From Nocardioides sp. S-1144 (GTDB taxonomy: Bacteria; Actinomycetota; Actinomycetes; Propionibacteriales; Nocardioidaceae): DNA of 64,000 nt. The stretch spans positions 2,294,001 through 2,358,000 of the forward strand of contig NZ_CP040695.2 in the NCBI RefSeq assembly GCF_005954645.2, given 5' to 3'. The translations under genes and the position numbers were made by a program. This document shows, piece by piece, positions 8,220 through 11,241 of this stretch (positions are counted from its first letter, which is position 1; every line of letters starts with the position of its first letter). The notes beneath the pieces were generated by a model. It searched no databases. It worked only from the letters and a program-made list of their open reading frames with translations, and was not told where the DNA came from.

Positions 8220-8875
8220 TGCTCCGCTCGCTGCGCGCCGTCCAGAGCCACCCCTCGGCGCTGCTGCTGGGCCTGCAGCTGCTCGTGATCCTGGCCTACC
8301 CGTTCCTCGACGCCTCGACCTCCGGGCGGGCGGTGCTCGGTGCGGTCCAGGTCTCCGTCGTGCTCGCCGCCACCTGGGCGGTGCGGCGCACCCCGACCCT
8401 GTCGTGGGTCGCCGTCGTCTTCGGTGCACCGGCCGTCGTCTTCAGCGTGCTGGAGGCCTTCGCCTCGCAGACCAGCTGGGTGGTGCTGGTCTCGGCGCTC
8501 CTGCACGTGCCGTTCTACCTGTTCGTCTCCTACGCCCTGATCCGCTACCTGTTCCACGACGACAAGGTGACCCGCGACGAGCTGTTCGCGACCGGGGCGG
8601 CCTTCACCGTCGTCGCCTGGGCCTTCGCCTACGTCTACGCCGGCGCCCAGGTCGTCTGGCCCGACTCGTTCATCGCCCACGGCGGCGAGGGCCCCCGCCC
8701 GTGGTTCGAGCTGCTCTACCTGTCGTTCACCACCCTCACCTCGGTCGGGCTGTCCGACGTCGCGCCGATCGACGACCACGCCCGCTCGCTGGTGATGCTC
8801 GAGCAGGTCACCGGGGTCTTCTACGTCGCCCTCGTCGTCGCCCGTCTCGTCGGCCTCACCGCCCGCCGCGCCTGA
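8219..8875 (+). CDS. Two-TM/pore potassium-channel-family protein with variant filter
   Basis: 218 residues, with about four to five membrane helices in the first 150 residues, then a pore-helix/filter region YLSFTTLTSVGLSDVAP near residue 170 and a final helix. This fits the Ion_trans_2 (PF07885) pore architecture. The filter reads TSVGLSD rather than the K+ signature T-V-G-Y-G-D, so K+ selectivity is doubtful. Translationally coupled to the DUF1707 gene (TGATG-type overlap). Its last 20 bases overlap the end of the convergent EamA gene. A short hairpin follows. It could be a nonselective cation channel or a degenerate regulatory subunit. Confidence 0.65.
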   Translation: MLRSLRAVQSHPSALLLGLQLLVILAYPFLDASTSGRAVLGAVQVSVVLAATWAVRRTPTLSWVAVVFGAPAVVFSVLEAFASQTSWVVLVSALLHVPFYLFVSYALIRYLFHDDKVTRDELFATGAAFTVVAWAFAYVYAGAQVVWPDSFIAHGGEGPRPWFELLYLSFTTLTSVGLSDVAPIDDHARSLVMLEQVTGVFYVALVVARLVGLTARRA

Positions 8876-9821
8876 CCCGCACCTGACCCGTGCGGGGCGG
8901 ACCCGCCGGCGCCGACCGGACGCGGACGGCCCCCGCCGCGCACGCGACCACGGCGACGCCGCCGAGGACGGTAGCCGTCGTGACCTCCTCCCCGAGGAGC
9001 AGGCCGGCCCACGCGATGGTGAGGACCGGCTGGGCCAGCTGGACCTGGCTGACCGACGCCATCGGCCCGATGGCCAGGCCGCGGTACCAGGCGAGGAAGC
9101 CGAGGAACATGCTGACCACGGCGAGGTAGCCGAAGGCGGCCCACTCGGTCGGCGTGGCCTGCGGCGCCCCGGCCCGGAGGGCGACCAGCGCGAGCACCAG
9201 CATCGGGGGCGCACAGACGACCAGCGCCCAGGAGATCGTCTGCCACGCGCCCAGCTCGCGGGCCAGCAGCCCGCCCTCCGCGTACCCCACGGCCGCGGCC
9301 AGCACGGCGGCCACGAGGAGCAGGTCCGCCCGGTGCAGCCCGCCGAACCCGTCGCCCTGGAACGAGGCGAAGACCAGCGCCGCGACGGCCCCAGCCGCCG
9401 CCGCGACCCAGAACGCGCGCCGCGGCCGCTCACCGGAGCGCACCACCGTGGTCACCGCGGTGGCGGCCGGGAGCATCGCGACGACGACGGCCCCGTGGCT
9501 CGCCGGCGCGGTGGTCAGCGCGTAGGAGGTCAGGAGGGGGAACCCCACGACGACGCCGGCGCCGACGACCGCGAGCCGGGCCCACTGGCGCCCGCGCGGG
9601 AGCCGCTCGCGGGCGAGCCCGAGACACAGGACCGCGAGGCCGGCGGCGACCACGGCCCGTGCCGAGCCGACGAGCAGCGGCGACAGCCCCCCGAGCGCGA
9701 CCCGGGTCATCGGCACCGTGAAGGAGAAGGCCACCACCCCCAGCAGCCCCCACCGGAGCCCGGCACCGGGACCTGGTAGCACCGGGCGGAGCGGACGAGT
9801 AGCGCTATCGTGGTGCGTCAT
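8856..9821 (-). CDS. EamA/DMT-superfamily transporter
   Basis: 321 residues with ten predicted hydrophobic segments arranged as two EamA repeats; typical signatures include GLRWGLLGVVAFSFTVPMTRVAL, PASHGAVVVAMLPAATAV and VSQVQLAQPVLTIAWAGLLLGEEV. DMT members export amino acids or metabolites across the inner membrane. The start ATG at 9821 shares two bases with the ATG of the divergent MocR gene. Adjacent MocR-type regulators commonly control such exporters, so an amino-acid or vitamin B6-related substrate is an inference. The C-terminal Arg-rich tail overlaps the channel gene by 20 bp. Confidence 0.85.
   Translation of the reverse strand: MTHHDSATRPLRPVLPGPGAGLRWGLLGVVAFSFTVPMTRVALGGLSPLLVGSARAVVAAGLAVLCLGLARERLPRGRQWARLAVVGAGVVVGFPLLTSYALTTAPASHGAVVVAMLPAATAVTTVVRSGERPRRAFWVAAAAGAVAALVFASFQGDGFGGLHRADLLLVAAVLAAAVGYAEGGLLARELGAWQTISWALVVCAPPMLVLALVALRAGAPQATPTEWAAFGYLAVVSMFLGFLAWYRGLAIGPMASVSQVQLAQPVLTIAWAGLLLGEEVTTATVLGGVAVVACAAGAVRVRSAPAGPPRTGQVRVRRGGR
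8876..8896. terminator. Hairpin at convergent channel/EamA gene ends
   Basis: CCCGCAC (8876-8882) pairs with GTGCGGG (8890-8896) around the loop CTGACCC. It begins right after the channel gene stop and lies inside the 3' coding end of the opposing gene, so it can serve both. No U-tract follows, as is usual in high-GC actinobacteria. The CTGACCCG element present twice here also edges the 43-bp palindromes elsewhere in the window. Confidence 0.5.
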
Positions 9822-9834
9822 GAACGACGATAGC
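9804..9834. promoter_or_regulatory. Shared divergent promoter/operator with overlapping start codons
   Basis: Perfect inverted repeat GCTATCGT (9804-9811) / ACGATAGC (9827-9834), centre 9819. Each arm holds a TATCGT -10 box: the left for the rightward MocR gene (ATG at 9820), the right for the leftward EamA gene (ATG at 9821). Each -10 box therefore lies inside the other gene's coding sequence, and both messages are predicted leaderless. The arms are a natural dimer site for the MocR protein. Confidence 0.65.
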
Positions 9835-11241
9835 AGCGGCCGGATCGCGGCCAGCCTCCGCGCCTGGCTCGCGACGGCGCCCGCGGGGGCCCGCCTGCCG
9901 TCGACCCGGTCGATCGCCGCCGAGCACCGGGCGAGCCCGGTCACGGTGCAGCGGGCGCTGCGCTCGCTCACCACCCTGGGGCTGGTCGAGACCCGGCCCG
10001 GCGTCGGCACCTTCGCCCGCACCGCCCGCACCGCCCGCACCGCCCTGCCGGTCGACCACGCCTGGCAGACCAACGCCCTCCGGTCCCCGCCGACCAGCGC
10101 CCGCGGGTCGTCGACGGCGCTGCGCACCGTGCCGAACGACGTCCTCGCCCTGCACGCGGGCTACCCCGACCGCGACCTGCTGCCCGAGCGACTGGTGCGC
10201 TCGGCCCTGGCGCGCGCCGCCCGCTCGGACGCCGCGGTGACCCGCACCCCCGCGGCCGGGCTCCCGGCGCTCCAGGCCTGGTTCGCGGCCGAGCTCGCCG
10301 AGCACACGCCGTCCGGGACGACGGCACCCGCGGCGCACGAGGTCGTCGTCGTGCCGGGGAGCCAGAGCGGGCTCGGCTCGGTCTTCCGGGCCCTGGTGGC
10401 GCCCGGCCAGGCGATGCTGACCGAGTCGCCCACCTACTGGGGCGCCATCCAGGCCGCCGGCCAGGCCGGGGTGCGGCTCGTGCCGGTCCCGAGCGGGCCG
10501 GGCGGCCCGGACCCGGACGACGTCGACCGCGCGTTCGCGGAGACCGGCGCCCGGGTCTTCTACGCCCAGCCGCACTACGCCAACCCCACCGGCGCCCAGT
10601 GGAGCCCCGCCGTCGCAGCCCGGATCCTCGACGTCGTCCGGGCGCGCGGCGCGTTCCTGGTCGAGGACGACTGGGCGCACGACTTCGGGATCACCACCTC
10701 CCCGACGCCCCTGGCCGCCCAGGACGACGGCGGCCACGTGGTCTACCTCCGCTCCCTGACCAAGAGCGTCTCGCCCGCCCTGCGGGTGGCGGCGCTGGTC
10801 GTGCGCGGGCCGGCGCGGGCCCGGATCCTCACCGACCAGGCCGCCGAGACGATGTACGTCAGCGGGCTGCTCCAGGCCGCCGCGCTCGACGTCGTCACGC
10901 AGCCCGGCTGGGGCACCCACCGCCGCGGCCTGCGCGAGCGGCTCGGCGCGCGCCGCGACCTGCTCGCCGCGGCGCTGCGGGAGCACGCACCGAGCGTCGA
11001 GGTCGAGCACCTGCCGCCGGGCGGGCTGAACCTCTGGGTCCGGCTGCCCGACCACACCGACCTGGACGCCGTGGTGCTCGGCTGCGAGCGCCGGGGGCTG
11101 GTGGTGGCCCCGGGCGCCGAGTGGTTCCCGGCGGAGCCGCCGGCGCCGCACGTGCGGCTGAGCTACGCGGGACCGAACCCCGCCGCGTTCGCGGACGCCG
11201 CGACCATCCTCGAGCAGGCGGTCGTCGCGGCCCGTCCCTGA
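9820..11241 (+). CDS. MocR-type (GntR/aminotransferase) PLP-dependent regulator
   Basis: 473 residues. N-terminal GntR winged helix (about residues 8-66: GARLPSTRSIAAEHRASPVTVQRALRSL in two halves, GLVETRPGVGTF), a Thr-Ala-Arg-rich linker encoded by a 9-bp repeat, then a fold-type I aminotransferase domain. PLP-site features are present: PGSQSGL, AQPHYANPTG, DDWAHDF and Schiff-base Lys in SLTKSVSP (about 312). MocR proteins sense amino acids or PLP and regulate a neighbouring gene, here most simply the divergent EamA exporter. The start is fixed by a TATCGT box eight bases upstream and by the shared start-codon geometry. Confidence 0.88.
   Translation: MNDDSSGRIAASLRAWLATAPAGARLPSTRSIAAEHRASPVTVQRALRSLTTLGLVETRPGVGTFARTARTARTALPVDHAWQTNALRSPPTSARGSSTALRTVPNDVLALHAGYPDRDLLPERLVRSALARAARSDAAVTRTPAAGLPALQAWFAAELAEHTPSGTTAPAAHEVVVVPGSQSGLGSVFRALVAPGQAMLTESPTYWGAIQAAGQAGVRLVPVPSGPGGPDPDDVDRAFAETGARVFYAQPHYANPTGAQWSPAVAARILDVVRARGAFLVEDDWAHDFGITTSPTPLAAQDDGGHVVYLRSLTKSVSPALRVAALVVRGPARARILTDQAAETMYVSGLLQAAALDVVTQPGWGTHRRGLRERLGARRDLLAAALREHAPSVEVEHLPPGGLNLWVRLPDHTDLDAVVLGCERRGLVVAPGAEWFPAEPPAPHVRLSYAGPNPAAFADAATILEQAVVAARP

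Follow-up and report, generated by a model that had tools for sequence, protein, structure and literature searches.

The genes mocR and eamA of Nocardioides sp. S-1144 start on opposite strands from ATG codons that overlap by two bases. We propose that a MocR operator lies over two face-to-face leaderless promoters and would keep both genes repressed until a PLP-reactive ligand arrives; from comparative sequence evidence, we put this reading at about two chances in three. The features concerned, numbered within the window (the whole 64,000-nucleotide stretch of DNA that was analysed), are as follows.

8856..9821, minus strand: eamA, EamA/DMT-family transporter of 321 aa, assigned from its domain
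9775..9782, plus strand: box A (GGTAGCAC; GRTAnCRS, -45 to -38), putative MocR half-site in eamA codons
9798..9809, no strand: box B/B' (AGTAGCGCTATC in the window, usually the palindromic AGTAGCGCTACT), putative MocR half-sites in eamA codons
9806..9811, plus strand: predicted mocR -10 box TATCGT (TANNNT), 8 nt before the mocR ATG
9819..9822, no strand: CATG, the overlapping start codons and predicted leaderless transcription starts of both genes
9820..11241, plus strand: mocR, regulator of 473 aa with a GntR-type winged helix and an aminotransferase-like domain, assigned from its domains and conserved start
9827..9835, minus strand: predicted eamA extended -10 element, TATCGT (9832-9827) preceded by TG and one further base, with a 5-nt spacer to the eamA ATG
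9827..9836, plus strand: box C (ACGATAGCAG, +8 to +17), putative MocR half-site within mocR codons 3-6

The regulator and the transporter

Regulators of the MocR/GabR subfamily are PLP-binding dimers arranged head to tail. MocR carries an N-terminal winged helix at residues 7-65 (PF00392, 42.4 bits, cut-off 27) and a C-terminal class I/II aminotransferase-like domain (PF00155, 76.5 bits, cut-off 19.7). An SxTK motif, which we take to be that of the PLP lysine in the aminotransferase-like domain of MocR proteins, is present in 124/127 loci. Against the PdxR equivalog model (NF052282), MocR scored 184.9 bits, below the cut-off of 320. Among solved structures, the top matches to MocR were aminotransferases, GabR was a weak match (E 1.5e-4), and no match to EamA was found. 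The partner beside the regulator is an EamA (DMT) transporter in most loci. At its other end, eamA overlaps by 20 bp (8856-8875) the 3' end of a plus-strand ORF that ends at 8875.

Overlapping start codons and their flanking repeat

The mocR ATG occupies 9820-9822 on the plus strand and the eamA ATG 9821-9819 on the minus strand, so that bases 9820-9821 within the CATG belong to both. An inverted repeat, GCTATCGT at 9804-9811 and ACGATAGC at 9827-9834, matches at 8/8 positions on either side. The window has a single copy of the spaced repeat, and 0/100 shuffles have one; the bare 8-mer is found only at these two places in the window, a count of two that 4/100 shuffles also reach. Across the 4.43-Mb genome, the pattern TANNNT-N7-CATG-N4-ANNNTA has a single match, which is the mocR/eamA start region, and the reversed control has none.

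The sequence-only reading had described the overlapping divergent starts and a repeat that gives each gene a TATCGT box. The overlap agrees with the coordinates and recurs in homologous loci (see below). The repeat is exact in the window, and perfect 8/8 arms were found in only 5/126 distinct start regions (the window, L052, L092, L103 and L119). The commonest arm match is 5/8, seen in 82/126 start regions against about 2 at control offsets, and the two facing TANNNT boxes supply three of these arm matches for free.

Conservation among Actinomycetota

The transporter frame runs for at least 250 codons from the ATG overlapping the mocR start in 81/81 loci, namely the window and the best 80 of 419 relatives. 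A search at E <= 1e-60 found the regulator in 28/396 further Actinomycetota genomes and in 22/98 genomes of the same genus. Taken together, 129 loci were surveyed for the same geometry, the named ones bearing the labels of ten actinobacterial families; a Gloeocapsa genus label, presumably a name-matching error, was excluded from the family count. The partial matches L101 and L114, L071 (see below) and L116 (a duplicate of L001 that is included in the early counts) were left out of the counts.

The CATG is kept in 126 of the 129 loci, and in 122 of them the frame that it opens contains an EamA match; the layout is therefore not a local accident. This frame rule holds for 122/124 CATG loci with an EamA match. 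Four CATG loci fail it: L107, for which the rule was too strict and which is in frame on inspection; L027, whose best EamA match segment lies in another frame within the gene; and L113 and L115, where no EamA match was found beside the CATG. L115 is a second regulator copy in one genome (G352), with the CATG kept and box B weakened. In Pseudarthrobacter enclensis (L071:2501), ATA replaces the mocR ATG and the eamA ATG is intact.

The eamA linker has about 18 different lengths (measured in 120/123 loci, a set preselected by the frame rule in which 3/123 lacked the motif). The EamA frame is open in 122/129 loci across linkers of so many lengths that we regard the two start codons as very probably real. 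An internal eamA start, which the sequence-only reading had named as a finding that would overturn it, is improbable. The C at -1 is fixed in 37/37 representatives. For mocR, an in-frame stop no more than 15 codons upstream of the ATG, with no start between, was found in 15 loci.

We considered whether the geometry is a general actinobacterial habit and rejected this for the own class. Of 296 Actinomycetota searched, 26 listed genomes belong to the own class or are closer still; in these, the geometry pattern had 15 hits among the matches listed against 6 for the reversed control, and by coordinates 13 of these 15 are the mocR locus itself.

Predicted promoters and leaderless starts

We divided the loci into a core of 105, including the window and sampled by 56 representatives, and an outer set of 21. 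The mocR TANNNT is present at its spacing in 105/105 core and 17/21 outer loci, being absent in the other 4/21. Its usual form in relatives is TACTAT, TACTCT or TACTGT, not the TATCGT of the window. The eamA TANNNT keeps a fixed spacing in 105/105 core and 21/21 outer loci, preceded by TG in 99/105 and 19/21. Each box stands at its spacing in 56/56 core representatives, within the codons of the partner gene, as the sequence-only reading had proposed. Only one other TANNNT was found on the eamA strand within 60 nt across the 56 representatives; extra ones are more frequent on the mocR strand, where 14/56 representatives also have one at spacer 5. A scan of 9600-10000 for the sigma-70 consensus (TTGACA/TATAAT), which suits this genome poorly, gave no match.

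In the available text of a study of Mycobacterium tuberculosis, TANNNT has its centre 7-12 bp upstream of the start, and 22-26% of genes are leaderless (PMC3898074); the figure given for Streptomyces coelicolor is 21% (PMC4895711, likewise seen in part). The TANNNT centres here lie 11.5 bp before the mocR start and 8.5 bp before the eamA start, and neither gene has a Shine-Dalgarno sequence, so that both fit the pattern of leaderless genes. A Shine-Dalgarno-like sequence precedes mocR in 1/56 and eamA in 2/56 representatives. Because this is rarer at both starts than the background of 9%, leaderless starts are the best prediction for both genes, and the leaderless transcripts suggested earlier stand as such a prediction, with the TANNNT spacing fixed.

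Three conserved boxes

Conserved bases were mapped in 37 representatives of less than 85% identity. Three boxes resembling GRTAGCRS are conserved near -45, -22 and +10, and little is conserved between them other than the start codons. Box B, from -22, reads AGTAGCGCTAC across the 37 representatives and is palindromic. Its half B' overlaps the mocR -10 box, and C covers that of eamA. The repeat first noticed thus corresponds to B' and C, and box A falls outside the interval 9804-9834 that was described with it. The earlier proposal of a MocR dimer site coinciding with both -10 boxes was partly borne out: the overlapping sites are there and appear conserved as DNA, and there are three putative boxes in place of one dimer site.

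Box A is a direct copy in 103/105 core loci, and is inverted and 4 bp nearer in 17/21 outer loci. In both orientations, it is 23 bp from the like-directed half of box B; its orientation flips between the two main clades with this distance unchanged. The box spacings of 23, 31 and 27 bp correspond to 2.2, 3.0 and 2.6 helical turns (A-B 2.2, B'-C 2.6). Published MocR sites consist of 2-4 boxes, as far as the accessible part of the source shows (PMC5320631). The full box B pattern, searched as an exact pattern only, has one match in the genome, which suggests that MocR has few targets.

B' and C match each other in 123/126 loci, a match explained in part by the T, A and T of the two facing TANNNT boxes. 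Both are of a TAAC type in some outer groups. A tree of 65 rows (every second of the 56 core representatives, named exceptions, outer loci and 13 plasmid loci) was used to look for joint change of B' and C. It held only two independent pairs, in one of which the second box follows, and these are too few events.

Codon choice under the boxes is unusual. Codon 4 of mocR ends in A or T in 56/56 core representatives against 7.5 expected from the codon usage of each locus, and eamA codons 5, 7 and 15 do so in 56/56 each against 6.2, 8.0 and 4.1 expected. Codon 3 of mocR encodes N, D, E, H or Y, yet its middle A (+8), which is the last T of the eamA -10 box, is fixed in 126/126 loci. Such rare A/T-ending codons point to selection on the DNA itself; judged by codon choice, the boxes are kept for their DNA sequence and not for the residues that they encode, and conservation as protein only was rejected.

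Loci on plasmids and in other phyla

Other phyla were reached via plasmids only. We examined 20 stretches from plasmid records, of which 15 (L139-L151, L156 and L157) hold a regulator of the family with its start region; L152 and L158 are broken or partial. No such start overlap was found in L153-L155, whose regulators are about 30-32% identical to the L145 protein. Among the 15 loci, the CATG is present in 13, and in 11 it opens a frame of 299-429 codons. Eight of these frames encode EamA transporters and three encode MFS transporters, the latter in Rhizobium and Mesorhizobium (L141, L144 and L151). L142 has CACG instead of CATG. In L150, AGTG takes its place and no divergent partner is annotated.

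Both genes are annotated by NCBI in 11 of the plasmid loci. The annotation shows exactly the 2-bp overlap in four of these (L139, L144, L146 and L156), with an MFS transporter in L144 (Rhizobium sp. CB3090), and puts the eamA or mocR start elsewhere in the remaining seven. In L143 (Deinococcus sp. QL22), the DMT gene is annotated from the overlapping ATG and mocR from a later start. The layout thus reappears outside Actinomycetota, beside an MFS transporter in Rhizobium and in a Deinococcus.

The BenE-type loci L145 and L149 keep the CATG and the boxes, and the frame on their transporter side stops after 28-29 codons. The start of BenE comes about 85 nt later (L145:1995, L149:2001), so a leader peptide is possible. 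In the Microbacterium plasmid locus L156 (1-2002), an FMN-binding regulator, a quinol monooxygenase and a PhzF-family protein are encoded after the DMT gene on the same strand; these neighbours may hint at the pathway served.

Proposed mechanism and alternatives

In the mechanism that we propose, both mRNAs would be leaderless and begin at their ATGs. With leaderless mRNAs from overlapping ATGs, the two promoters would face each other, and polymerases could not occupy both together. MocR itself would bind boxes A, B/B' and C; as C covers the eamA -10 box and B' overlaps that of mocR, this binding should shut both promoters, so that MocR would repress its own gene as well as eamA. The ligand, an amine or amino acid that reacts with PLP in the aminotransferase-like domain, would alter the grip of MocR and free eamA, whose product probably moves that PLP-reactive compound across the membrane. 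As a possible refinement, MocR on the direct repeat A-B (23 bp) might block mocR only, and on the inverted B'-C both genes.

We infer MocR binding to the boxes from their position, from the published patterns of MocR sites and from the match of B' with C. The MocR-type protein EnuR acts as a repressor, and its operators are predicted to overlap the promoter core, according to the part of the source available (PMC8739950). Several observations count against the model: neither -10 spacer (5 and 8 nt) has the optimal length, the A-B and B'-C distances are 2.2 and 2.6 turns, the mocR TANNNT is absent in 4/21 outer loci, and the CATG persists beside a short frame in L145 and L149 and with no EamA match in L115. 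The sequence-only reading saw in the locus a compact regulator/target switch. The geometry fits repression of both genes better than a switch with one gene on and the other off.

An account that we consider rather unlikely holds that the layout arose by chance and became irreversible, because each start codon and -10 box sits in the other gene; there would be no regulatory gain, and MocR would bind as at any divergent pair. The persistence of the CATG next to a short partner frame (L145, L149) or without an EamA match (L113, L115) agrees with such a frozen accident, as does the lack of any excess of the geometry at other places in the 26 genomes listed from the own class or closer. However, the layout was kept despite the change to MFS in L141, L144 and L151, boxes A and B hold a fixed distance although they are away from the start codons, and the CATG can be lost, as L142 and L150 show. 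We also think it unlikely that MocR on A and B represses mocR and turns eamA on with the ligand. GabR and PdxR act as activators and self-repressors in this way, and the plan is common in the MocR subfamily. The direct and inverted repeat boxes also resemble MocR sites described in the portion of PMC5320631 available to us. GabR-like activation of eamA would nevertheless fit less well: seen from the predicted eamA start, A and B are 24-47 bp downstream, and C lies over the -10 box, a placement unusual for an activator.

It is improbable that the starts are mis-assigned, with eamA beginning at an internal codon or with leadered mRNAs coming from other promoters. An in-frame GTG does occur at codon 14 in 45/127 loci, and the NCBI starts differ in 7/11 annotated plasmid loci; against this stand the frame kept in 122/124 CATG loci (with L107 likewise in frame), the many linker lengths with the C at -1 fixed, and the near absence of another TANNNT on the eamA strand. 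Very improbable, finally, is the view that only the N-terminal peptides, DSS in MocR and SSAT in EamA, are conserved. The residues are indeed alike across loci, but A/T-ending codons in 56/56 representatives against 4-8 expected at four positions, and the residue that varies where its common base stays fixed, speak against it. Compared with these alternatives, repression of both genes from an operator over two face-to-face leaderless promoters remains our preferred reading. We suggest, more tentatively, that a regulator operator, two leaderless promoters and two start codons merged in about 60 bp, within the codons of both proteins, could form a distinct class of element with an age spanning Actinomycetota, Deinococcota and Alphaproteobacteria, its transporter exchanged from EamA to MFS, and to BenE with a short frame.

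Comparison with known systems

E. coli bidirectional promoters carry their -10 elements between the two starts. As predicted for mocR/eamA, one DNA stretch gives two opposite transcripts and the binding of one polymerase blocks the other, and the commonest distance between the starts is 18 bp, in the available part of the description (PMC12825309). The mocR/eamA locus is unlike this type, as its predicted starts fall within 2 bp of each other and have the -10 boxes on their outer sides; assignment to an E. coli-type promoter, with -10 elements between starts about 10-23 bp apart, was thus rejected. LysG/lysE of M. tuberculosis likewise pairs a divergent regulator and exporter, with an inverted repeat over overlapping promoters and one leaderless lysE transcript, whereas its regulator is of the LysR type and its distant start codons are separated by a 108-bp intergenic region, as given in the accessible text (PMC5648196).

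GabR, PdxR and EnuR are like two-domain proteins with a transporter as divergent neighbour and repeated boxes at fixed spacing (PMC5320631, seen in part). The same source, in its available part, describes PdxQ groups, MocR regulators whose regulons hold DMT or LysE transporters and PLP genes (PMC5320631); here L156 alone was noted with a DMT gene, an FMN-binding regulator and PhzF-family genes. In contrast to known MocR systems, the mocR/eamA locus has boxes A and B on the downstream side of the predicted target-gene start, and the accessible portion of PMC5320631 describes no operator within both coding sequences around shared start codons. No paper on MocR and EamA together was found in the collection searched. 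Overlapping divergent start codons with a common operator were not described in the parts of the literature searched, and others may exist.

Divergent overlapping genes of prokaryotes also have overlapping 5' ends, as mocR and eamA do; in the available text of two surveys, they make up about 1% of overlaps, are under-represented, and the long ones are all misannotations (PMC2174442, PMC2478687). Their rarity is put down to the space that regulatory DNA takes up ahead of a gene, according to the part of the first survey available (PMC2174442). The mocR/eamA overlap differs in being 2 bp long, conserved and the carrier of both predicted promoters. It appears to need no upstream room: the predicted promoters and operator are contained in the codons of the two genes, and this arrangement has survived in different phyla, even where the transporter belongs to another family. 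Should it be confirmed, the locus would offer a clean natural case to measure exclusion between face-to-face promoters, and to ask how the same bases can serve a leaderless start codon, a -10 box and a repressor site. The CATG and box pattern would also help to correct start codons misplaced by annotation pipelines. A MocR protein, a divergent transporter and repeated boxes are known (PMC5320631, in the part available); relative to the portions of the literature searched, the overlapping start codons, the predicted face-to-face promoters and the putative operator inside both genes appear to be new.
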